From Pseudomonas antarctica (GTDB lineage Bacteria > Pseudomonadota > Gammaproteobacteria > Pseudomonadales > Pseudomonadaceae), in assembly GCF_001647715.1 (NCBI RefSeq), contig NZ_CP015600.1, positions 1,302,001 through 1,366,000 on the forward strand: a stretch of 64,000 bases of DNA. The letters run 5' to 3'. Under the pieces are notes generated by a model that was given only the letters and a program-made list of their open reading frames with translations, did not search any database and was not told the origin of the DNA. This document shows, piece after piece, positions 4,651 to 16,649 of the stretch (positions within the stretch are counted from its first letter, which is position 1; each line of letters begins with the position of its first letter). The translations under genes were made by a program, and so were the position numbers.

Positions 4651-5421
4651 TCAGTCAAACTTGTAGCTGATCGCGGTCTGCACCTGGCCCTGGTTCACGT
4701 TGCCGGTTTCCTTGACGATGGTGCTGTTGGCGGCCGAGCCGACCAGGTGCGTCCAGCTGGCGCTGGTCAACAGCGACCAATGGGCGGCCAGGGGGAATTC
4801 GAAGCTCTGGGTCAGCGTCAGGTTCTGGAAACCGGCACTGGCGTTATAGGCACGAATGCCTGAGGCCGCGGACTCCTTGTCACTTACGCCGAAAAAGGTC
4901 TGGGTCTGGCGGGCATCGGCAAAGTGCGCCATCAGGCCCGTGCTGCCGATGATGCCGCCACCCAGCGGGTAACCCAGCTCGCCGCCGACCTTGCCCAACA
5001 CACCGCTTTGGTCACGCCCGCCGCCTACGGCCTGGCCCACTTGCGCGTAGACGCGCCAGAACTCGGCCGGGGCGTATTGGATGAAGCCACCGACTTCAGC
5101 CATATCCGACACATCGCGCAAGCCGCGCAGTGAGCCGTTGGCCGTACGGCCAGGCAAGTAATTGATGTAGGGGCCGGCGGTGATGCCATTGGTATTGAGC
5201 GCGCTCCAGGTCAAGCCGTCGTCGGTGCCGAGGCTGACACTGCCCCAGTCCAGGTCGAAATAGGGAATCGCCTGGGTTTCGTAGCGGCTGCCGGTGGGGT
5301 CGTGGGGTTGATAACTGATGCCTGCACCGACTTCACCGGTAATGCCGTCCGCCAATACCGTGCTGGACACACTCCACAGCCCGAGCAAACCGGCGAATAC
5401 AGCAGAAGTAACCTTGTACAT
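4651..5421 (-). CDS. MipA/OmpV-family outer-membrane protein
   Basis: A 256-residue beta-barrel protein of the MipA/OmpV family. The start at 5421 has AAGGA upstream and gives a signal peptide ending SSTVLADG; the longer frame to 5484 is rejected. The mature part alternates short amphipathic strands typical of an outer-membrane barrel and ends in Phe-Asp (SYKFD), close to the usual aromatic C terminus. MipA was first described as a murein scaffold protein; other relatives are stress-inducible porin-like proteins, so the function here is open. The palindromic site at 5493-5528 lies about 75 bases upstream and could also control this gene. Confidence 0.8.
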   Translation of the reverse strand: MYKVTSAVFAGLLGLWSVSSTVLADGITGEVGAGISYQPHDPTGSRYETQAIPYFDLDWGSVSLGTDDGLTWSALNTNGITAGPYINYLPGRTANGSLRGLRDVSDMAEVGGFIQYAPAEFWRVYAQVGQAVGGGRDQSGVLGKVGGELGYPLGGGIIGSTGLMAHFADARQTQTFFGVSDKESAASGIRAYNASAGFQNLTLTQSFEFPLAAHWSLLTSASWTHLVGSAANSTIVKETGNVNQGQVQTAISYKFD

Positions 5422-5492
5422 GGAGCGTTTCCTTATCTGAACTTGCGCGCATTCACGCGCGAAGGGCATCCCTGGCGCAAGCACTCATCTTG

Positions 5493-5528
5493 TTTGTAGC
5501 AAGCTACAAAAATTGTAGCTTGCTCGAC
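5493..5528. promoter_or_regulatory. Palindromic activator site upstream of a sigma54 promoter
   Basis: A perfect inverted repeat, TTTGTAGC-AA-GCTACAAA, lies at 5493-5510. A second, partly decayed copy (TTGTAGC-TT-GCTCGAC) is centred 19 bases further right. The pair lies about 80-115 bases upstream of the expected start of transcription from the -24/-12 element at 5583. That is where sigma54 activators normally bind. The sixth gene of the downstream operon encodes such an activator, so I infer that this is its binding site. Confidence 0.55.
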
Positions 5529-5582
5529 ACATATAACCATAGACCTCAACCAAAACCCCAGCCCTGCTGGGCTTTAATCAGT

Positions 5583-5598
5583 TGGCACAGTCCCTGCT
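5583..5598 (+). promoter_or_regulatory. Sigma54 (-24/-12) promoter of the six-gene operon
   Basis: TGGCACAGTCCCTGCT matches the sigma54 consensus TGGCACG-N4-TTGCW at all but two positions. GG and GC are separated by exactly ten bases. It is oriented toward the phosphatase gene at 5660, with predicted transcription start near 5609. Confidence 0.8.
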
Positions 5599-5659
5599 AT
5601 AGCCCTGTTGCAAGCGCATAGAGCGCTCTCTTCAAGCCCTCCAACTTCAAGGACAGGCA

Positions 5660-6361
5660 ATGATCCAGTGGCATATCGTGTGCGACTTCGACGGGACCAT
5701 CACCCCTACCGACGTCATCGACAACGTCCTCCAGCGCTTCGCCGGCCCTGAGTGGGAAACCATCGAACAGGAATGGCTGGATGGGCACATCGGTTCCCGC
5801 GAATGCCTGAGCCGCCAATTGGCGTTGATCAAGGCCACACCGGCTGAACTGTTAGCGTATTTCGACAGCGTCGAGATCGACCCGGACTTCCCGGATTTCG
5901 TCGATCACGTCATGGGCCTGGGCGCGACCATCGAAGTGGTCAGCGACGGCATCGAACAAGGCATCGCGCGCATTCTGTCGCGTAACTACGTGACCTTGCT
6001 GCCGATCCTCGCCAACCGTCTGCGCCAGGTCGACCAGAACAGCTGGCGCATCGACTTCCCGTACTCCAGCGACGCCTGCCGTGCTGCGTCCGGCAACTGC
6101 AAGTGCAAATCCACCCCGCGCAACAAGCGCGTGCTGGTGATTGGCGATGGCAAGTCCGACATGTGCGTGGCCTCTACCGCCGACTTCGTCTTCGCCAAAG
6201 GCAGCCTCGCCAAATATTGCGAAGCCAACAACATTCCCCATGCGCGCTTCGACACCTTCGCCGAACTGCCCGCATTGCTGGCCAAGCTGCCTCAGGGCAT
6301 CGCGGCCAACGCCACCACCTTTACTGCTGCTGACAATCAGGAACTCTTCCACCATGTCTGA
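5660..6361 (+). CDS. MtnX-like HAD phosphatase
   Basis: A 233-residue HAD-superfamily phosphatase of the MtnX-like HAD-IB group. Motif I is DFDGT with nucleophile Asp9 and acid Asp11. Motif IV is GDGKSDMC at 162-169. A cysteine patch (Cys140, Cys147, Cys149; GNCKCK) is typical of MtnX relatives. MtnX itself removes phosphate from a methionine-salvage enol intermediate, but no other methionine-salvage gene is nearby, so the substrate is probably different. It is first in a six-gene operon behind a sigma54 promoter. AAGGA lies about 6 bases upstream of the ATG. Its stop overlaps the aminotransferase start by eight bases. Confidence 0.85.
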   Translation: MIQWHIVCDFDGTITPTDVIDNVLQRFAGPEWETIEQEWLDGHIGSRECLSRQLALIKATPAELLAYFDSVEIDPDFPDFVDHVMGLGATIEVVSDGIEQGIARILSRNYVTLLPILANRLRQVDQNSWRIDFPYSSDACRAASGNCKCKSTPRNKRVLVIGDGKSDMCVASTADFVFAKGSLAKYCEANNIPHARFDTFAELPALLAKLPQGIAANATTFTAADNQELFHHV

Positions 6362-7748
6362 TATCCGTATCGCCACCGCCGAAGACCAGATTCTTCTGGA
6401 TAAAGAAGCCAAGTACTGCTCCTACGGCGACACTGTTCACTACATCGAGCCACCGCGTATTTTCAGCCGTTGCGAAGGCTCCTACGTGTGGGACACCGAA
6501 GACCAGGCTTACCTCGACCTGCAAATGTGGTACTCGGCCGTTAACTTCGGCTACGCCAACCCACGCCTGAACAACGCGTTGAAGCAGCAGATCGACACCC
6601 TGCCGCAAATCGCCAGCCAGTACCTGCACAAAGGCAAGATCGAGCTGTCGGAAATGATCGCGGTCGATGCCAAGAAGAAATTCGGCCTCGACGGTCGTGT
6701 GCACTTCAACGTCGGTGGTTCGCAATCCATCGAAGACTCGTTGAAAGTGGTGCGTAACGCGTCCAACGGCAAGAGCCTGATGTTCGCCTTTGAAGGCGGT
6801 TACCACGGCCGTACCCTCGGTGCCTCGTCGATTACCTCCAGCTTCCGCTACCGTCGCCGTTACGGCCACTTTGGCGAACGTGCCAACTTCATTCCGTTCC
6901 CGTACCACTTCCGTGGCCCGAAAGGCATGACGAAAGAAGAATACGGCAGCCATTGCGTGCAGCAGTTCGCCCGTCTGTTCGAGACTGAATACAACGGCGT
7001 CTGGGACCCGAAAACCAACCAGTGCGAATACGCAGCCTTCTACGTCGAGCCGATCCAGGGCACCGGCGGCTACGTGATTCCGCCGATGAACTTCTACCGC
7101 GAACTCAAGCATGTGCTGGATCAGCACGGCATCCTGATGGTGTCCGACGAAATCCAGATGGGCTTCTACCGTACCGGCAAACTGTGGTCGATCGAGCACT
7201 TCGACGTGCAGCCGGACGTGATCGTCTTCGGTAAGGCGCTGACCAACGGCCTGAACCCGCTGGGCGGCATTTGGGCGCGTGAAGAGTTGATCAACCCGAA
7301 GATCTTCCCACCGGGTTCGACCCACTCCACCTTCGCCTCCAACCCACTGGGTACGGCGGTAGGCCTGGAAATGTTCAAGATGACCAGCGAAGTCGATTAC
7401 GGCGCGATGGTCATGGCCAAGGGCAAATACTTCCTGGAAGGCCTGCAAGACCTGCAGAAACGTTTCCCGATCATCGGCGACGTCGATGGCCTGGGCCTGG
7501 CCCTGCGCTGCGAAATCTGCGGCCCGGATGGTTTCACGCCGGACAAGGCGACCCTGGACTACATGGTCGAAGAAGGCATGAAGGGCGACATGGTTGTGGA
7601 TGGCCAGAAACTCGGCTTGATCCTCGACGTGGGCGGCTACTACAAAAACGTGATTACCCTGGCACCGTCCCTGGAAATCAGCTACCCGGAAATCGACCTG
7701 GGCCTGAAGCTGCTTGAGCAACTGCTGGTTCGGGCGACCCAACGGTGA
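6354..7748 (+). CDS. Class III PLP-dependent aminotransferase
   Basis: A 464-residue fold-type I, class III aminotransferase. The cofactor lysine is Lys294 (VFGKALTNG), the pyridine-N aspartate is in SDEIQMG at 264-270, and GGSQSIEDSL at 121-130 forms the phosphate loop. The C-terminal domain is complete. Relatives act on omega-amines or amino acids such as 4-aminobutyrate and diaminobutyrate; the acceptor here is not predictable. The start MSDIRIATAE overlaps the end of the phosphatase gene. The stop overlaps the GTG start of the hydrolase by four bases, which implies coupled translation and a joint pathway. Confidence 0.88.
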   Translation: MSDIRIATAEDQILLDKEAKYCSYGDTVHYIEPPRIFSRCEGSYVWDTEDQAYLDLQMWYSAVNFGYANPRLNNALKQQIDTLPQIASQYLHKGKIELSEMIAVDAKKKFGLDGRVHFNVGGSQSIEDSLKVVRNASNGKSLMFAFEGGYHGRTLGASSITSSFRYRRRYGHFGERANFIPFPYHFRGPKGMTKEEYGSHCVQQFARLFETEYNGVWDPKTNQCEYAAFYVEPIQGTGGYVIPPMNFYRELKHVLDQHGILMVSDEIQMGFYRTGKLWSIEHFDVQPDVIVFGKALTNGLNPLGGIWAREELINPKIFPPGSTHSTFASNPLGTAVGLEMFKMTSEVDYGAMVMAKGKYFLEGLQDLQKRFPIIGDVDGLGLALRCEICGPDGFTPDKATLDYMVEEGMKGDMVVDGQKLGLILDVGGYYKNVITLAPSLEISYPEIDLGLKLLEQLLVRATQR

Positions 7749-8611
7749 ATGTCTCCGGGATCGATCTCGGTGAAGGTGATGCCGGCTTCGTTCTCGGTGA
7801 AGGTCCGGTCGGGATCCTGTTGATCCACGGCCTGACCGGCACCCCGACGGAATTGCGTCAAGTCGCCAAAGGGTTGGCCAAGGCGGGTAACTGCACGGTG
7901 TACGTGCCCACCCTGGCCGGGCACTGCGGCGATAACAGTGACCTGCAGGCCACCGGCTGGCTGGACTGGTACGAAGGCGTGCGCAAGACCTTTGCACAGG
8001 TCAAGCAGCGCCACGAGCAGGTGTTTGTCGGTGGCTTGTCCATGGGCGCGGTGATGTCGATGTACGTGGCTGCCGAGCACCCGGGGCAAGTGGCCGGGCT
8101 GTTGATGTATTCCACGACCTTGAAGTACGACGGCTGGAGTATTAACAAGCTGGCGTTCCTGACGCCGTTGCTGATGAAGATTCCATTCGGCGTGCACATC
8201 TGCCGCTTCGAAGAGAAGCCACCTTATGGCATCAAGAACGAGCGCCTGCGGGCAATTGTCGAGCGCCAGATGAAGGAAGGGGAAAGCAGCGAGGCCGGTT
8301 TGCTGACCATGGAAGGCATCACGGTGCGCGAGTTGCACCGGATGAATGCTGTGGTCAAGAAACGCATGCCTGAGGTCAAGGTGCCGGCACTGGTGTTGCA
8401 CTCCATCGAGGACGATATCACCAGCCGCTGGAACGCCGATTACGTGGAGCGCCACCTAGGTGGGCCCGTCACCAAGATCCTGCTGGACAACTGCTACCAC
8501 ATGATTACCGTCGACCTGCAATACCGCCGAGTGATCGAGTTGAGCGCCGAGTTTGTCGAGCAACACGCCGCTACTACCCAGGTGTCCGAAGACTACCGAC
8601 AGCGTGCATAA
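7745..8611 (+). CDS. Alpha/beta hydrolase, carboxylesterase-like
   Basis: A 288-residue cytoplasmic alpha/beta hydrolase. It carries the oxyanion motif HGLTGTP at 28-34, the nucleophile elbow GGLSMG with Ser99, an acid in LHSIEDDITS, and a histidine in CYHMITVD. It resembles Est30-type carboxylesterases and monoacylglycerol lipases. The GTG start lies inside the GTGA overlap with the aminotransferase stop. In this operon it could hydrolyse or form an ester or thioester of the aminotransferase product; that is inference. Confidence 0.85.
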   Translation: MNVSGIDLGEGDAGFVLGEGPVGILLIHGLTGTPTELRQVAKGLAKAGNCTVYVPTLAGHCGDNSDLQATGWLDWYEGVRKTFAQVKQRHEQVFVGGLSMGAVMSMYVAAEHPGQVAGLLMYSTTLKYDGWSINKLAFLTPLLMKIPFGVHICRFEEKPPYGIKNERLRAIVERQMKEGESSEAGLLTMEGITVRELHRMNAVVKKRMPEVKVPALVLHSIEDDITSRWNADYVERHLGGPVTKILLDNCYHMITVDLQYRRVIELSAEFVEQHAATTQVSEDYRQRA

Positions 8612-8626
8612 GCTTAAGGACAAGAC

Positions 8627-9751
8627 GTGATCACCGCCCAAGCCTTCTCGACTATCCGGGCCATCCAGCGCAGTGCCTGGAACGACTGTTTTCCCGGAGC
8701 CCTGGAGGATTGGGACTTTTACGTCGCTGTGGAAAACGCCGCTATCGATGATTTCAAGTGGCGTTACCTGGCTGTTTACGACGATGAAACGCTGGTGGCG
8801 GTTGCCGCCGCGTTCATCACTTATTATCGCCTCGACACCACGGTGTCGGGTGCAGGCAAGCGCTTTACCGAGCGCCTGGAGCGACTGTGGCCGGGTGTTT
8901 TACGCCTGGAGTTGTATGCCATCGGCTCTCCGGTGGCCGAGCGTTGTGACGCGGGCATTGCCAGCCATGTTGACGAGGCGCAGCGCCCGTTGCTAATCAA
9001 GCACTTGCTGATGGCTGCGCGCCAGGACGCCAACGCGTTCGGAATTGGCCTGGTGGCGGTCAAGGACGTGCCGACCAAAGACCCGTACTGGGCAGACAGT
9101 TGCCGCCTTGCAGGTTTTCAGAGCATGCCGAGTTTGCCCAGCGGGTTGTTGACGGTGCCTTACGGCTCAGTGGACGCCTACCTGGGCTCGCTGTGCAAGG
9201 CGACTCGCAAGGACTTGCGCCGCAAGCTGCGTGCGCCGGGCCCTCGGGTAGAGTGGCGGCACAACATTGATGATGTGTTACCTGAGGTGATGCGCCTGTA
9301 CGAAGACACGCTCAGTCGCGCGGACTTGCAGTTCGAGCGCCTGCCGGCGAGTTACTTCACCGGCATCCTTGAACGGTTGGAAGGGCGTGCGGTCTGTGCT
9401 CTTTATTGGGTGGACGAGCGACTGGTGGCGTTCAACCTGATCCTGTTGGACCAGCACCGTTTGATCGACAAGTTTTTCGGGCATGACCGTGAGTTCAGCC
9501 GTGAGTACAGCTTGTATTTCAGAAGTTGGCTGACCAATGTTGACTATTGTATCCAGCACAGTATTCCCGTGTACGAGTGCGGTCAGGAGGGGTACGCCAG
9601 TAAGCTGCGCCTGGGTTGCGAGTTCCGGGGCAACAGCATGTTCTTCCGCCACCGTAACCGGCTGGTCAATGGCCTGCTCAAACTCGTAAAAATGTATATA
9701 AGACCGGATCGATCCGACCCTGCCATGGCTGCTGCGATAAGCGAAACCTGA
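8627..9751 (+). CDS. FemAB/GNAT-like acyltransferase
   Basis: A 374-residue protein of the FemAB-like/BioF2-type acyltransferase group, two GNAT folds in tandem. The second half carries typical stretches (KATRKDLRRKLR near 192, then YEDTLSRADLQFERLP, VDERLVAFNLILLD and a C-terminal YECGQEGYASKLRLG). The GTG start at 8627 has AAGGA at 8616-8620. Relatives attach an acyl or aminoacyl group to an amine, for example in peptidoglycan bridges or exported conjugates; the donor and acceptor are unknown. It follows the hydrolase by 15 bases and overlaps the kinase start by one base (TGATG), which places it firmly in the operon. Confidence 0.75.
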   Translation: MITAQAFSTIRAIQRSAWNDCFPGALEDWDFYVAVENAAIDDFKWRYLAVYDDETLVAVAAAFITYYRLDTTVSGAGKRFTERLERLWPGVLRLELYAIGSPVAERCDAGIASHVDEAQRPLLIKHLLMAARQDANAFGIGLVAVKDVPTKDPYWADSCRLAGFQSMPSLPSGLLTVPYGSVDAYLGSLCKATRKDLRRKLRAPGPRVEWRHNIDDVLPEVMRLYEDTLSRADLQFERLPASYFTGILERLEGRAVCALYWVDERLVAFNLILLDQHRLIDKFFGHDREFSREYSLYFRSWLTNVDYCIQHSIPVYECGQEGYASKLRLGCEFRGNSMFFRHRNRLVNGLLKLVKMYIRPDRSDPAMAAAISET

Positions 9752-11529
9752 TGATCACCAAGACCCGCCAAAAAGCCCGCCCCTTTGCCATTTCGCGCTG
9801 GAGCGTCCAGCGCAAGCTGGTGCTGGCGTTCTGGCTGGTCAGCGTCATTCCGACCATGATCGCTGCCGAATTGGCGGCGACCACGCTGTCGCAGATTTTC
9901 GACAGCAACGTGCGTATCTGGCTGCAAGAGTCGACCAAGATCGTCAAGGATGAAATCGGCGACATCCTTCATGACAACGCACGCATGGCCAAACTGTTCC
10001 TGCGCTACACCGCTCCGCCCTCGAACAGGCAAGCCGCCAAGCATGACCGGCTCACCGCCGATATCGCCGAGGCCACCGATATAGACGTGGTCTCGCTGAT
10101 TCGCGTCAGTGACCACAAGATTGTGTTCAGCACGGCCCCTGATGATGTCGTCAAGCAGATCAACCTGACCAGCAACGCGGTGCTGCAAACCATCCAGGTG
10201 GCCGGCGTGACTACGGGCCTGGTGGTATCGACGTTCGAAACCACCCAAGAGGGCGTCGACTACGTGCTGTTGGTGGCGACTTACCTGGACAGCAGCTTCC
10301 TCACCAGCGTGGCCGATGTGCATTCCCTCGACCTGCGCCTGTACCTGGCCAACCCCTCGGGGTTTTCCGAGATATTCTCGACCCAGCGTTTCGAAAATCA
10401 TCCTTCGCGCATCCCGAAGAATGTCGAAACGGCCATGCGCAGCACCAAGCAGCCGAGTGAGCAGTTCACCAATAACTACAGCGGTCTGTATTGGCCCATC
10501 TTCAACGACGCCGGCGACTTGCAAGGCGTGATCTTCAGCGGCCTGCTGCGTCATACCAGCCTGGTTGGGCTGGTGAATCAGAGCAACTTGTTCGTGCTGA
10601 TATTCCTGCTGAGTTCGGCGTTGTCCCTGGGCGCCGGCGTGTTGGTGTCACGGCGCCTGACCAAGCCTCTGCGGGACTTGTCCCAAGGCGTGGATGCGGT
10701 GATCTCGGGCCATTATGAGCATCGCGTATTGGTCAGCGGCGGCGATGAGCTGGCGCAGTTGAGCAGCACCTTCAACCACATGACCGAGCGCCTGGGCGAG
10801 CTGCACCACCTCGAAGCCCAGTTACGCCGCCGCGACCGGCTGCATGCTCTGGGCGAAGTCGCGATGGGCCTGGCCCATGAGATTCGCAACCCGTTGGGTA
10901 TTATAAAGACCGCCACCCAGCTGCTGCACCGTCGTGCCGACTTGCCGGAAACCGACAAGCGCCACCTGGAATACGTGATCAGCGAAGTCAGCCGCATCAA
11001 CGACCTGATCACCGAGTTTCTCGACTTCGCCAAACCCAACCCGCCCCTGCGTGTGTTGCAGGCAGCGCGTCCGGTGGTGGAAGAAATCCTTGGTTTCTGC
11101 AGCCCGGAACTCGCCACCCATAACATCGATGCGAAAATCGATGATCAGGCGCCCGGTGCAACCCTCTATGCTGATGCCAAGCAGCTCAAGCAGGCGTGCC
11201 TCAACCTGATTCTCAACGCCATCGATGCAATGCCCGAAGGCGGGCGCCTGACCCTGGGCATTCGCAGCGTCGACGGCAACACGGTGATCAGTATTGCTGA
11301 CACCGGCCAGGGCATCCCGGCGGATATGATTGAGCGTATCTTCACGCCATTTGTCACCACCAAGGCGTCAGGCACAGGCTTGGGCCTGGCCAAAGTCTAT
11401 TCGATCATGGAAAGTCACGACGGCAGCATTGAATGTGCCAGTGAGAAAGATGCCGGCGCCACCTTCAGCCTGTACATTCCGGCGCATGGTGAAGACGACG
11501 GCGATGATGAGGAAGGTCATGACGCATAA
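9751..11529 (+). CDS. Membrane sensor histidine kinase
   Basis: A 592-residue hybrid-free histidine kinase. TM1 is at about 22-45, a periplasmic double-Cache-like region spans about 46-275, and TM2 is at about 277-300. HAMP covers about 300-355. A dimerisation helix carries the phospho-accepting His376 ([10 protein letters not shown]). An ATPase domain has the N box [11 protein letters not shown] and glycine boxes DTGQGIP and GTGLGLA. It ends in an acidic tail. The partner is the sigma54 activator that starts inside its last codons. In domain order the pair resembles the MifS/MifR system described in P. aeruginosa, but I cannot establish orthology here. Its place in the biosynthetic operon suggests that it senses the pathway's substrate or product. 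Confidence 0.87.
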
Positions 11530-12916
11530 CGTATTGGTAGTCGACGATGAGCCCAAGCTGTGTGATTTGCTATCGTCGGCCTTGAGTCAGAATGGCATTC
11601 AGGTATTCACCGCGAGTAATGGCCTGCACGCACTCAAAGTGCTGGACCAGGAAGACATTGACCTGGTGATCAGCGACTGGCGCATGCCGGGTATGGACGG
11701 GCCGGCGCTGCTGGCGGAGATAAAGGTGCGCTTCCCGGATTTGCCGGTGATCGTGATGACCGCCTACAGCACGGTGAAAAATGCGGTGCAGTCGATGCGC
11801 AATGGCGCCTATGACTATATCGCCAAGCCGTTCGACATCGACGAGCTGGACATCACCGTGGCCAAGGCCCTGCAGTTTCGCGACATCATGCGCGATAACG
11901 CGCGCCTGCGCGCCGAGCTTGACCATCATGCGCAGTTCGACAGCCTGGTGGGCGACAGCCCGGCGTTTCGCCAGGTGCTGCATGCCATCGACTCGGTACG
12001 TGACAGCAACGCAACCATCCTGCTGACCGGCGAAAGCGGCACCGGCAAGGAAATGGTTGCCCGTGCCATCCACAAACACGGCAGCCGAGCCGACAAACCG
12101 TTCGTGGCGGTCAACTGCGCGGCCATTCCGGAAGGCCTGCTCGAAAGCGAAATGTTCGGCCATCGCAAGGGCGCCTTTACCGGCGCCGTGGCGGATCGGG
12201 TCGGGCGTTTTATGCAGGCCGACAAGGGCACGCTGTTTTTGGACGAAGTGGGCGATATGCCCCTGGCGTTGCAGGCCAAGATTCTGCGCGCCTTGCAGGA
12301 ACGGGTGATCGAGCCGGTGGGCGACCCGCGCGAGCGCAAGGTGGACGTGCGGGTGATCGCCGCCACCAACAAAAATTTGCTGGATGCGGTGGCCAATAAA
12401 GAGTTTCGTGAGGACCTGTATTACCGCCTCAACGTGTTCCCGATCCCACTGCCGGCCCTGCGCGAACGCGCCGAAGATATCGTGCCCCTGGCCCGGCACT
12501 TCGCCCAGACCCTCAGCGCGACCGCCGGTAAACGCATCACTGGCTTCAGCCCAGAGGCGTTGCAGGCCATGGCCGCTTACAACTGGCCGGGCAATATTCG
12601 CGAGCTGCAAAACTGTGTGGAGCGGGCGACCATCGTGGCAGCTAAGCCGGTAATCGAAGACATCGACCTGCCGGCTTACCTGTTTGCCTCCAAGCCTGCC
12701 GAGGGAGGCGTGACGGCGATGCTCAGCGACGGACCGGGTGTGCCGCAGGATCTGGATGCGGCGCTGGCGGAAGTGGAGAAGGCCTATATTCTGGCGGCGT
12801 TGAATGAAAGCAACGGCGTGCAGGCAGCGGCGGCCTCAAAGATCGGGATTTCCGAGAGGAGCTTCTGGTATCGGTTGAAGAAGCTGGGGATTCATGTCGA
12901 CAAGATTGTGCGCTGA
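11519..12916 (+). CDS. Sigma54-dependent response regulator (MifR-like)
   Basis: A 465-residue NtrC-type regulator. The receiver domain spans about 1-125 with phospho-acceptor Asp53 (ISDWRMPG) and Lys103. The AAA+ domain has Walker A GESGTGKE at 171-178 and the sigma54-contact motif GAFTGA at 218-223. A Fis-type helix-turn-helix closes the protein (AAASKIGISERSFWYRLKKLG). The ATG at 11519 has GGAAGG upstream and overlaps the kinase by 11 bases; the longer frame to 11330 is a shadow. It is the obvious activator for the -24/-12 promoter at 5583, which would make the operon autoregulated. Confidence 0.88.
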   Translation: MTHNVLVVDDEPKLCDLLSSALSQNGIQVFTASNGLHALKVLDQEDIDLVISDWRMPGMDGPALLAEIKVRFPDLPVIVMTAYSTVKNAVQSMRNGAYDYIAKPFDIDELDITVAKALQFRDIMRDNARLRAELDHHAQFDSLVGDSPAFRQVLHAIDSVRDSNATILLTGESGTGKEMVARAIHKHGSRADKPFVAVNCAAIPEGLLESEMFGHRKGAFTGAVADRVGRFMQADKGTLFLDEVGDMPLALQAKILRALQERVIEPVGDPRERKVDVRVIAATNKNLLDAVANKEFREDLYYRLNVFPIPLPALRERAEDIVPLARHFAQTLSATAGKRITGFSPEALQAMAAYNWPGNIRELQNCVERATIVAAKPVIEDIDLPAYLFASKPAEGGVTAMLSDGPGVPQDLDAALAEVEKAYILAALNESNGVQAAAASKIGISERSFWYRLKKLGIHVDKIVR

Positions 12917-12942: not shown

Positions 12943-13036
12943 AATGTGGGAGCTGGCTTGCCTGCGATTACGGTGTATCAGTCATCAGATCGGGTGCAGA
13001 CATACCGCCATCGCAGGCAAGCCGGCTCCCACATGT
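12943..13036. repeat. REP pair (REPIN) 3
   Basis: An inverted pair with outer arms ATGTGGGAGCTGGCTTGCC and GGCAAGCCGGCTCCCACAT. It lies between the convergent response regulator and glpM. Confidence 0.88.
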
Positions 13037-13049
13037 TTACCCAGTTGGG

Positions 13050-13398: not shown

Positions 13399-14748
13399 TT
13401 AGTGGCTCAAGCCATACTTCTTGACCTTGTCGAACAGGGTGGTCTTGGCCATCCCCAGTTCCTGGCTGGCCTGGGTCAGGTTGCCGCCGCTGCGTTGCAG
13501 GGCGTCGTTGAGCAAGTTGCGTTCGAAGGCTTCGACCGCCTCGGTAAAGGCCAGGCCATGGTTGCTGTTGCCGTTGCCGCTTTTCTTGAAGGCAGGCAAG
13601 CCCAAGGCGAAGCGTTCGGCGACGTTGCGCAGTTCACGCACGTTGCCTGGCCAGTCGTGGCTCATCAGGCTCGACACGGTCTGGTTATCCAGTTCCGGCA
13701 CGCTGCGGTCAAAGCGCAGCGACGACTGCTGCAGGAAGTGTTCAAACAATTGCAGGATGTCTTCCCGGCGTTCGCGCAGCGGCGGCAGCTCCAGGGTCAC
13801 TACGTTGAGGCGGTAGTAAAGGTCACTGCGGAACTGACTGGCCCGGCTCAGCTCGTCGAGGTCGGACTTGGTTGCGGCGATCACCCGACAATCCACCGCC
13901 ACGCTCTGGTTCGAACCCAGGCGTTCCAGGGTGCGTTCCTGCAACACCCGCAGCAATTTGATCTGCAGGTTGATCGGCATGCTTTCCACTTCATCGAGGA
14001 ACAGCGTGCCTTCGTGGGCGTGCTCGATCTTGCCGATGCGCCGTTTGCCAGCGCCGGTAAAAGCATTGGCTTCGTGGCCGAAAATCTCGCTTTCGAACAG
14101 GTTTTCCGGCAGGCCGCCGCAGTTCAAGGCGACGAACTGGTGGGAATGGCGTCGGCTGAAATCATGCAGGCAGCGTGCGACCAATTCCTTGCCGGTGCCG
14201 GTCTCGCCTTCGATCAGCACGTTGGCGGAGGTGTCGGCGACGTTGGCGATCAGCTCGCGCAGGGTCTGCATGGCCGGGGAGCGACCGATGATGCGACCTT
14301 CCAGGGAGTCGCGCTCAGCCAGTTGGCGGCGCAGCGACCACACCTCGCGCGCCAGCCCGCGTTGTTCCAGGGCGCGGCGGGCCACGTCGACCAGGCGCTC
14401 GGGCGAGAAGGGTTTCTCCATGAAGTCGTAGGCGCCATTGCGCATGGCGCCGACGGCCATAGAGATATCGCCGTGGCCGGTGATCAGTACCACCGGCAGG
14501 CTTTTGTCCAGGGCCTTGAGCCGGGTCAACAGCTCCAGGCCGTCGATGCCCGGCAGGCGAATATCGCTGATGACGATACCGGCAAAGTTTTCGCCGATGC
14601 GCTTGAGGGCTTCTTCGGCACTGCCTACGCCCACACTGGGAATGTCCTCCAGCGCCAGGGCTTGCTGGCAGCCGAGCAGCACATGGGGGTCGTCTTCGAC
14701 GATCAGAACGGTGAGGTCGTCTTTAGAGGCGGTAGCGTCTGTATTCAT
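13399..14748 (-). CDS. aauR: Response regulator AauR for acidic amino acid uptake
   Basis: A 449-residue DctD-type sigma54 activator with receiver Asp62 (ISDIRLPG), Lys112, Walker A GETGTGKE at 181-188 and a C-terminal Fis-type HTH (LTQASQELGMAKTTLFDKVKKYG). The sigma54-contact loop reads NAFTGA at 228-233, with Asn in place of the first Gly of GAFTGA. It overlaps aauS by four bases. In P. putida AauR/AauS respond to Glu and Asp and activate aatJQMP; the same gene set is present here, and matching operators lie upstream of aatJ. Confidence 0.88.
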   Translation of the reverse strand: MNTDATASKDDLTVLIVEDDPHVLLGCQQALALEDIPSVGVGSAEEALKRIGENFAGIVISDIRLPGIDGLELLTRLKALDKSLPVVLITGHGDISMAVGAMRNGAYDFMEKPFSPERLVDVARRALEQRGLAREVWSLRRQLAERDSLEGRIIGRSPAMQTLRELIANVADTSANVLIEGETGTGKELVARCLHDFSRRHSHQFVALNCGGLPENLFESEIFGHEANAFTGAGKRRIGKIEHAHEGTLFLDEVESMPINLQIKLLRVLQERTLERLGSNQSVAVDCRVIAATKSDLDELSRASQFRSDLYYRLNVVTLELPPLRERREDILQLFEHFLQQSSLRFDRSVPELDNQTVSSLMSHDWPGNVRELRNVAERFALGLPAFKKSGNGNSNHGLAFTEAVEAFERNLLNDALQRSGGNLTQASQELGMAKTTLFDKVKKYGLSH

Positions 14749-16649
14749 GTCGACTCAGCTTTTTGGGTGCCTGCCAGCGGCAGGCACAAGACAAAGGCCG
14801 TACCACCAGTGGCCGGGTGTTCCACGGCAAGGGTGCCGCCAGTGGCCGCCGCGAGGCTGGCGGAAAGCGTCAGGCCCAGCCCCAGGCCTTGTTCACCGGG
14901 TTTGGTGGTGAAGAACGGTTCGAATAAGTGTTTACGTGTTTCGGGGTCGATGCCATGGCCATTGTCGCGCACATGCAAGCGGTACTTGCCGTCGGCGCTG
15001 TGGCCGTCCAGCCACAGTTCGGGCGTTGGCTGCGCTTGCATCGCATCGAGGGCATTACCGATCAGGTTCACCAGGATTTGTTCCAGGCGCGTCTGGTCGA
15101 TCTGCAGTTGGGCGTTGCTGAAATCGCGGTGCAGGGTCAACGGCAGGCCATCCAGGCGGGCGCCCAGCACCTGGAACGCGGCGTCCACCGCTTTGCCGAG
15201 GTTGGCCTCGCCCTGGTCATCACCGCGCCGGGCAAAGGAGCGCAGGCTGGCGGTGATGCGGCCCATGCGGTCGATCAGTTCGTTGATGGTCTTGAGGTTG
15301 GCGCTGGCGGTATCCAGAGCGCCACGCTCGAGGAACCGCACGGTGTTGCCCGATAACGTGCGCAGCGCCGCCAGGGGCTGGTTCAACTCATGGGCAATGC
15401 TGGTCGACATCTGGCCGATGGCCGCGAGTTTACCGGCCTGCACCAGTTCATCCTGGGCGTGGCGCAGGGTTTCCTCGGCCTGGCGTCGTTCGCGAATCTG
15501 GCCCTTGAGCCGTTCGTTGCTGGCGCGCAGGTCGGCAGTGCGTTCGGCAATCCGACGTTCCAGCTGGCTGTTGGCTTCCTGCAAGGCTTCCCGCGCGGCG
15601 AGGCGGGTGGCAATAACCTTGCGGCGCTCGTTCCAGGCAATCAGCAAGAACGCGACCAGGCCAAACGCGACGGCCACCAGAATGCCCTGGTTGATCGCGG
15701 CCCGCCGCAGGTCGTTGAGCGGGGTCAGCAGGGTGAAATTCCACGGTGTATCACTCAGCGGACGGGTCTGGGCCAGGTAGCTGACTTCGTGCTCGTCGTT
15801 GACCACTTCGCTGTTGGCGGGGAAGGTCAGCTTCTCGGTGCCTTCGTTAAGGCGCTCGCGGGCCAGGGGCTCCAGCTCGTTCAGTGTCGCCCAGTAATAT
15901 TGCAGGCTGTGGGCCAGGCGTTCTTTGGTGTCATCGCTCAGCGGTCGCACGGCCTTGAGGCGGCGGGCCGGGTCGCTGGACAGGATGATGATGCCGTTCT
16001 CGTCGCTCACAAACGCTTCGAGGCGCGCGCGCTGCCAGCGTTCCTCCAGGGCTTCGAGGCGCACTTTGACCACCGCGACGCCGATGATCTTGCCGTGCTC
16101 TTCCAGGCCATGGGCCAGGTAGTAGCCGGGTTCGCCGTTCGTGCTGCCAATGCCATAGAAACGGCCGGGCTGGCCGCGAACGGCATTCTGGAAATAAGCA
16201 CGGAAGGACAGGTCTTCACCTTGGTAGCTGTCGGCATCGCGCCAGTTACTGGTGGCCAATACGCGGCCGGTGGTGTCCATCACGTAGATGGCCCGACTGC
16301 GACTGCGTCGGTTCAGGCCTTCGAGGTAATCGTTGACGGTTTTGCGGGTTTCCTGGTTCGGATCGGCCAGCAGCTTGGAGACGCTGGACTCCAATTCCAG
16401 AAGGCTGGGCAGGTAGGTGTATTTGCTCAGCTCGCTTTCGACGGTGCGGGCGTGCAGCTCCAACTGGCGTTCGCCGTTGTCGCTGAGGGTGCGGATGCCA
16501 TAGTACTCACTGACCCAGAAGCCGATATAACCCAGGCCGATCATCAGGGCGATGATCAACGGCGGCAGGAACAGTTGGCGGATCAGGCGTGGTTTCACGG
16601 CAAGTGATGGCGGTGCGGCGCGAAATTGGTTGGGGTCGCATTTCATCAC
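14745..16649 (-). CDS. aauS: Sensor histidine kinase AauS
   Basis: A 634-residue DctB-like kinase. TM1 is at about 25-46, a periplasmic Cache-type sensor spans about 50-318, and TM2 is at about 321-340. A coiled coil (345-405) leads to His420 (IAHELNQPLAAL), followed by the ATPase domain with NLIGNALDAMQ and GLGLGLTLS. Family and neighbours indicate periplasmic sensing of acidic amino acids and phosphorylation of AauR. The start is one of two adjacent ATGs (16649 or 16646). A REP pair separates it from aatP. Confidence 0.87.
   Translation of the reverse strand: MMKCDPNQFRAAPPSLAVKPRLIRQLFLPPLIIALMIGLGYIGFWVSEYYGIRTLSDNGERQLELHARTVESELSKYTYLPSLLELESSVSKLLADPNQETRKTVNDYLEGLNRRSRSRAIYVMDTTGRVLATSNWRDADSYQGEDLSFRAYFQNAVRGQPGRFYGIGSTNGEPGYYLAHGLEEHGKIIGVAVVKVRLEALEERWQRARLEAFVSDENGIIILSSDPARRLKAVRPLSDDTKERLAHSLQYYWATLNELEPLARERLNEGTEKLTFPANSEVVNDEHEVSYLAQTRPLSDTPWNFTLLTPLNDLRRAAINQGILVAVAFGLVAFLLIAWNERRKVIATRLAAREALQEANSQLERRIAERTADLRASNERLKGQIRERRQAEETLRHAQDELVQAGKLAAIGQMSTSIAHELNQPLAALRTLSGNTVRFLERGALDTASANLKTINELIDRMGRITASLRSFARRGDDQGEANLGKAVDAAFQVLGARLDGLPLTLHRDFSNAQLQIDQTRLEQILVNLIGNALDAMQAQPTPELWLDGHSADGKYRLHVRDNGHGIDPETRKHLFEPFFTTKPGEQGLGLGLTLSASLAAATGGTLAVEHPATGGTAFVLCLPLAGTQKAEST

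Follow-up and report, generated by a model that had tools for sequence, protein, structure and literature searches.

Closest described systems and the corresponding locus of Pseudomonas antarctica

The kinase/regulator pair PFLU1131/1132 of Pseudomonas fluorescens SBW25 was used for the evolutionary rewiring of motility, and its native targets are called unknown in the available parts of PMC10621929. The same parts place the kinase gene 3' of a GNAT gene (PFLU1130) and 5' of that for an RpoN-dependent regulator (PFLU1132). In them, an RpoN site is predicted upstream of PFLU1127/8/9 and a Rho-dependent terminator between PFLU1127/8/9 and PFLU1130/1/2, which are treated as two operons, and a kinase mutant is reported to have raised PFLU1130/1/2 along with 54% of the genes controlled by RpoN-dependent enhancer-binding proteins. 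MipA-MipB/ParRS is a second related system, acting in polymyxin sensing (PMC10936184, available parts). Here, a 64,000-nucleotide stretch of P. antarctica DNA (contig NZ_CP015600.1, the window) was analysed, in which four enzyme genes precede a kinase and a regulator gene and face a divergent mipA gene. Our leading interpretation, held at about even confidence, is that this locus forms the core of a widespread envelope pathway, sigma54-driven and envelope-sensing, that builds or remodels a lipid-like molecule bearing an amine or aminoacyl group.

Six plus-strand genes make up the locus. They encode a MtnX-like HAD-IB phosphatase (HAD, 5660..6361), a class III aminotransferase-like enzyme using pyridoxal phosphate (PLP) (AT, 6354..7748), a monoacylglycerol-lipase-like alpha/beta hydrolase (ABH, 7745..8611), a FemAB-like tandem-GNAT acyl/aminoacyltransferase (FEM, 8627..9751), a sensor histidine kinase (HK, 9751..11529) and an NtrC-family sigma54 response regulator (RR, 11519..12916). 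All six reading frames described in the original prediction are open and carry the domains that it named (reading frames, Pfam). HAD, AT, ABH and FEM occupy the positions of PFLU1127, PFLU1128, PFLU1129 and PFLU1130, and HK/RR is the orthologue of PFLU1131/1132. HK carries 368-GEVAM-372 and A547, which coincide with those reported for PFLU1131, the GNAT gene lies 5' of HK and the RpoN-type regulator lies 3' of it, in the order given for SBW25 in the available parts of PMC10621929. The locus corresponds to PFLU1127-1132.

HK has a HAMP-HisKA-HATPase arrangement, with hydrophobic segments at about 23-43 and 278-301 flanking a probable periplasmic domain. RR (Response_reg-Sigma54_activat-HTH_8) combines a REC domain, an AAA+ sigma54 domain with GAFTGA, read in the translation, and a Fis-type helix-turn-helix, which places it in the NtrC family. 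The pair stays below the equivalog cut-offs of AtoSC, ZraSR and NtrBC (AtoC 486.9 versus 714, AtoS 221.5 versus 646, ZraR 409.1 versus 760 and NtrC 451.4 versus 558.6 bits).

The original prediction had called the system undescribed, which holds only in part. The SBW25 locus is discussed in the parts of PMC10621929 that are available, but no paper on the enzyme set was found in open-licence PMC texts, on which its novelty in print rests. PFLU1127 was found in one of these texts and PFLU1128/1129 in none, nor was the origin of the RpoN-site prediction for PFLU1127/8/9 found there. In term searches, the words 'aminotransferase' and 'hydrolase' are absent from the main text of PMC10621929, and 'aminotransferase' is absent from the main texts of PMC13325599 and PMC10482368. 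PMC3684757 was rejected as a relevant precedent, its available parts concerning an unrelated PEP-CTERM FemAB.

HAD, AT, ABH and MipA occur in the same Pseudomonas genomes

The search for co-conserved neighbourhoods proposed in the original prediction was run across 119 Pseudomonas genomes. HAD (E 1e-20), AT (1e-100), ABH (1e-50) and MipA (1e-20) were each found in the identical 34 genomes, the four lists being compared by eye, and their places adjoin in all 34; the genomes are related, and these counts are not independent events. HAD, AT and ABH thus co-occur perfectly, but the fourth enzyme claimed for the conserved set does not follow them: FEM orthologues (at least 61% identity) are present in 28 of the 34 AT-positive genomes and missing from 6. 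AT is 90-100% identical to that of the window across the 34 genomes, and FEM falls to 61%. Among 73 named Pseudomonas loci (those of 6 kb or less excluded), FEM is intact in 56, and 14 keep HK-RR without FEM. The remaining cases are a 39-residue remnant (L061), a locus that ends before FEM (L045) and a partial second copy (L055). FEM is an accessory to the HAD-AT-ABH core. A FEM paralogue was matched in 10 of the 119 genomes, 9 of them AT-positive, the exception being G003.

Several oddities were seen among these loci. In P. palleroniana (L061, 11382-11498) FEM is cut to its remnant with HK-RR retained, the ABH match of one genome (G086:C21:22594-23436) crosses a TGA, and P. libanensis has a second HAD-AT-ABH copy (L055, 8217-11261) without mipA, HK, RR, operator or promoter.

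The mipA gene (4651..5421, minus strand) encodes a MipA/OmpV outer-membrane beta-barrel (PF06629, 121.8 bits versus a gathering threshold of 24.2). Its reading frame extends to 5484, and the likely start is the ATG at 5421, followed by an apparent signal peptide. Of 73 Pseudomonas loci examined, 72 have the gene, and in all of these it is divergent from and adjacent to the operon. One TGA is crossed by five of the 34 MipA matches (G047, G053, G100, G101 and G108); each of these alignments begins ahead of the likely start, before residue 22. The resemblance to MipA-MipB/ParRS lies in a MipA-family barrel associated with two-component signalling and, here presumably, with a response of the envelope; the regulator family differs from that of RR (PMC10936184, available parts). 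By this analogy, MipA is a candidate outer-membrane sensor or partner. The core observation of the original prediction stands, but this invariant divergent gene was overlooked, and the unit should be widened to take in both it and the operator described below.

The genes had also been described as joined by start/stop overlaps. This holds for four of the five junctions in the window (HAD/AT 8 bp, AT/ABH 4 bp, FEM/HK 1 bp and HK/RR 11 bp), but ABH and FEM are separated by a 15-bp gap. The 8-bp HAD/AT overlap recurs in 70 and the 4-bp AT/ABH overlap in 66 of the 73 named Pseudomonas loci, and the 11-bp HK/RR overlap in 58 of 71. The distance from ABH to FEM varies up to 605 bp; a value of -882 is an artefact of the remnant in L061. 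A single six-gene operon, as originally claimed, is not upheld, the ABH/FEM junction being the variable one and the available parts of PMC10621929 having two operons.

A likely dedicated operator upstream of the predicted sigma54 promoter

A sigma54 -24/-12 promoter (TGGCACAGTCCCTGCT, plus strand) is predicted at 5583..5598, exactly where it had been placed before, and in 75 of 76 regions, the window counted, HAD is preceded by a TGGCA...TGC site. Further upstream, an upstream activating sequence, TTGTAGC-AA-GCTACAA-AAA-TTGTAGC, spans 5494..5519. Its dyad TTGTAG-N4-CTACAA is exact in 72 of the 76 regions versus 0 of 38,000 mononucleotide shuffles, a control that does not remove the relatedness among the genomes. 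The candidate inner operator, GCTACAA-N3-TTGTAGC at 5503-5519, is a 7-3-7 dyad, the geometry of NtrC sites. It is exact in 48 of the regions, has one mismatch in 26 and two in 1, and is lacking in 1, that of L055; of 3,040 shuffled regions, one came within two mismatches and another 28 had three at best. Its first G is less conserved, at 67%. The spacing from operator to '-24' is 69-70 (21 regions), 79-82 (50), 91-92 (2), 97 (1) or 136 (1), so that the distances to the promoter are mostly helically phased. A conserved box, GCAAGCACTcATcTTGT (5477..5493), adjoins the operator on its mipA side; in 73 aligned Pseudomonas regions, 14 of its 17 positions are at least 97% conserved and one is at 95%, which makes it almost as conserved as the operator. 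For mipA itself, no sigma54 promoter at a constant place was found on the minus strand in 25 regions (best scores 0-9).

The exact operator occurs once in the 6.6-Mb genome of the window, with no one-mismatch site among the matches listed, and the sites with two or three mismatches in this genome look like chance (145, versus 426 for the pattern reversed as a control). Of 27 distant loci, all 7 with this regulator type have the motif (0-4 mismatches) together with a sigma54 score of 10-12, L153 being counted among them although its RR lies off the contig, and none of the 20 others does. Two of the seven motifs are less clear: L150 has a weak one (it overlaps the promoter and has 4 mismatches, with 11 of 400 shuffles equally good) and L164 a moderate one (3 mismatches, 6 of 400). 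L163, with a more distant NtrC-type regulator (33%), has no motif. The enzyme core appears to have been kept while its regulators were swapped, because loci with OmpR-type pairs instead (rhizobia, L118 and L119) are without the motif, which is found only with this regulator type. Because the operator is single in the genome and tracks the regulator type, RR at normal activity appears to be devoted to a single promoter. GCTACAA-N3-TTGTAGC is likely the operator of RR, and, judged from sequence, the case for this regulatory architecture of the operon is strong. The earlier proposal of a sigma54 two-component switch belonging to co-conserved enzymes is thus supported.

These data also bear on whether HAD-AT-ABH and FEM-HK-RR are merely two neighbouring units, with the native target of the regulator elsewhere. 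The separate treatment of PFLU1130/1/2 behind a predicted Rho-dependent terminator (PMC10621929, available parts), the variable ABH-FEM spacing and the 14 of 73 loci without FEM would suit such a split. However, the operator, single in the genome, sits at the HAD promoter and accompanies the regulator among distant loci. The second copy in P. libanensis, which has no HK/RR, is also without operator and promoter, and L152 has the genes in one run. We regard two separate units as very improbable.

The enzymes belong to known families and reach no pathway-specific model

HAD matches PF12710 (38.8 bits) and the MtnX-like HAD-IB subfamily TIGR01489 (83.7 bits versus a cut-off of 81.55). D9, D11, K148, D163 and D167, which we take to be the HAD motif residues, are kept in 32 of 32 sequences. 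Near-invariant cysteines were also noticed (C49, C140, C147, C149, C169 and C187). HAD shares its subfamily with MtnX, the 2-hydroxy-3-keto-5-methylthiopentenyl-1-phosphate phosphatase, but is far below the MtnX equivalog cut-offs (TIGR03333, 94.6 versus 303.2 bits; NF007103, 111 versus 292).

AT is a member of the class III aminotransferase family (PF00202, Aminotran_3, 242.8 bits versus a gathering threshold of 30.5). At E of 1e-60 or below, 5,986 homologous proteins were found among 8,000 scored candidates, many of which may be other class III enzymes. Like class III aminotransferases and racemases, including those of the 4-aminobutyrate (GABA) type, AT has the PLP lysine (K294) and the HGRT arginine; K294, R153, R165, R167-169, T237 and T435 are present in 32 of 32 sequences. 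It differs from GABA-type enzymes in T237, T435 and RYRRR at 165-169, all kept throughout these 32 family members, and its score for GABA transaminase (TIGR00700) is 199.5 versus a cut-off of 506.65 bits. Opposite Thr237 stand Glu in 7vno and 2eo5, Asp in two racemases and Ser in 1szk, presumably a GABA transaminase with the E211S mutation. Four of five alignments reach Thr435, and all four have Arg there. We take these two positions to be the acidic/Arg substrate switch of related class III enzymes.

ABH matches Hydrolase_4 (PF12146, 68 bits), and its top PDB match is a monoacylglycerol lipase (1.3e-31). The nucleophile position, Ser99 in the window, is Ser in 25 and Cys in 7 of 32 relatives; the change to Cys was seen in six rhizobial loci (L170-L175) and in L163. 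An apparent HAD-ABH gene fusion in L156/L158 was rejected, as the two matches sit in different reading frames.

FEM matches Acetyltransf_6/FemAB_like in Pfam (44.2/40.4 bits), and its sequence has no PDB match at E up to 1. Its AlphaFold model (pLDDT, the predicted local distance difference test, 86.9) is structurally nearest to FemX, Sba18 and FemA. The modelled structure has the FemABX tandem-GNAT fold, an assignment of fold only and one common to other GNATs. The sequence of FEM is 9-18% identical, in the structural matches listed, to the aminoacyl-tRNA-dependent FemX/FemA, Sba18/Sbb17 and MprF, and FEM is without the flippase domain of MprF.

No pathway-specific NCBIfam model was reached by the enzyme set, all equivalogs among the matches listed being below cut-off, in agreement with the earlier statement that the genes match no named pathway. 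Nothing found pointed to a lack of co-occurrence or to each enzyme belonging to a characterised pathway, the two outcomes that the original prediction had set against itself. A catabolic or salvage operon of the AtoSC or methionine-salvage type, in which the enzymes degrade the nutrient being sensed, either phosphorylated or an amine, was nevertheless weighed. The pair scores best with AtoC and AtoS, though below cut-off, HAD resembles MtnX, enzymes of aminotransferase class III frequently act in catabolism, and amino-acid permeases lie near the Bartonella locus L168. Against this, the MtnX and GABA transaminase cut-offs are not reached, the acidic/Arg positions of AT are Thr/Thr, and of those recurrent neighbour families that were annotated, a part of all neighbours, none was recognisable as a catabolic partner. 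A catabolic role is considered improbable.

Relatives carry additional lipid, transport and amine-handling genes

AT has relatives in 4 of 321 class genomes (that of the window included), in 3 of 244 order genomes, two being from Pseudomonas, and in 26 of 398 phylum genomes, 21 of them from outside Pseudomonas; AT was also found in 34 plasmid records. Outside Pseudomonas, AT identity is mostly 64-78%, with one at 55%. The relatives taken were the best 80 of 579; 20 of the 21 non-Pseudomonas phylum genomes were fetched (G588 left out), 8 of the 34 plasmid records were opened, and reading frames of distant loci were chosen by a simple greedy script rather than a gene caller. A phage origin was rejected, no AT match being found at E 1e-60 in 50,697 phage records.

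In the distant loci and annotated plasmids, the HAD-AT-ABH core is accompanied by varying subsets of other genes: FEM, an arginase-fold protein, paired small EamA proteins, a DegT aminotransferase, a FabF-like ketosynthase (KS), an acyl carrier protein (ACP), a fatty-acid desaturase, a cyclopropane-fatty-acid synthase (CFA), MipA/OmpV and an HlyD-ABC-FtsX-TolC exporter. Across 34 loci, reference loci included, HAD was found in 30, ABH in 31, FEM in 18, the arginase-fold protein in 19, EamA in 20, DegT in 10, KS in 7, ACP in 6, desaturase in 3, CFA in 7 and at least two exporter parts in 11. HAD is missing from the stretches of L157, L159, L167 and L168, and ABH from those of L159, L167 and L168. 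The long neighbour in L156-L158 reads by eye as UvrA, a housekeeping gene.

Beyond mipA, the 63 full Pseudomonas loci (those of 19 kb or less excluded) have two EamA genes in 51, an arginase-like gene in 38 and a desaturase gene in 12, as nested sets that the original prediction had overlooked. None of these is in the window, and KS, ACP, CFA, DegT, HlyD, FtsX and TolC are beside none of the 63. The arginase-like operon has no operator at two or fewer mismatches in other Pseudomonas, and its own sigma54-like site (score 10-11) is present in 38 of 38. A second locus in the genome of the window, near 6.11 Mb (L192, 7429-11473), has EamA-EamA-DegT facing an arginase-like gene and the FEM paralogue, with proteins 47-57% identical to those of X. 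sacchari; by sequence, it is the other half of an X. sacchari-type cluster, unlinked in this genome.

The DegT aminotransferase and two small EamA proteins of the relatives, whose best NCBIfam models are ArnE/ArnF, resemble the Arn system of lipid A amine modification. However, the EamA proteins score 27-28 bits versus ArnE/ArnF cut-offs of 92-99, ArnA, ArnC and ArnT were not seen in the annotated plasmid loci opened, and the Arn-like genes are a feature of the relatives, with none in the window.

The same neighbours could instead serve a soluble secreted small molecule, an acylated or aminoacylated amine acting as signal or weapon, with KS/ACP giving the acyl tail and the exporter secreting it. 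AT, GNAT/FemAB, KS and ACP together with HlyD-ABC-TolC would suit such a metabolite, the FEM fold is equally close to FemX and to the streptothricin-type aminoacyl-tRNA peptide synthases Sba18/Sbb17, and AT is found on plasmids. On the other side, the exporter genes HlyD, FtsX and TolC are absent beside the 63 Pseudomonas operons, no non-ribosomal peptide or polyketide synthase assembly line is among the neighbours scanned (part of each locus), MipA, the ArnE/F-like pairs, desaturase and CFA fit a membrane lipid better, and AT is unusually conserved. A soluble product is considered rather unlikely.

Directly 3' of the RR gene, an inverted repeat with GTGGGAGC-type ends was seen at about 12946-13037, which we take, by eye, to resemble Pseudomonas REP/REPIN elements. 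Convergent to the operon on the minus strand are a second sigma54-type response regulator (13399-14748), which scores best with NtrC/AtoC models and is below the cut-offs of 25 models among the matches listed, and an adjoining long reading frame (14745-16649). Reading frames of the same sizes are at the corresponding place in P. antarctica L035.

A proposed envelope pathway

In the envelope pathway that we favour, HK would be activated by a cue from the periplasm or outer membrane, which the MipA barrel may pass on. Phosphorylated RR would then bind the 7-3-7 operator and drive the sigma54 promoter, so that the HAD phosphatase, AT and ABH are made; read-through may also yield FEM and more HK/RR, giving positive feedback. 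HAD would strip a phosphate, at a step whose order is presumed, AT may install or handle an amine on an anionic precursor, phosphorylated or carrier-bound, FEM could attach an aminoacyl or acyl group, and ABH could cleave or transfer an acyl group. In relatives, the paired EamA proteins may flip the product and the HlyD-ABC-FtsX-TolC pump may export it. The product class, lipid-like and bearing an amine or aminoacyl group, is inferred from the neighbours in relatives. The pathway is deeply conserved and apparently unnamed.

More tentatively, the locus may belong to a class of pathway not reported before, which would make an envelope aminolipid, or an aminoacylated lipid, in Proteobacteria and is found on plasmids as well as chromosomes. 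It would combine a switch-less PLP enzyme acting on an anionic lipid precursor, either phosphorylated or bound to a carrier, with an aminoacyltransferase of the FemX type, flipping by ArnE/F-like proteins and MipA sensing envelope attack for a one-promoter regulator; this is possible, though doubtful.

The analysis provides a concrete candidate native target, an operator and a likely role for PFLU1132, a model of transcription-factor rewiring. If the product is an envelope lipid, the pathway would bear on the surface adaptation of soil and plant-associated bacteria.

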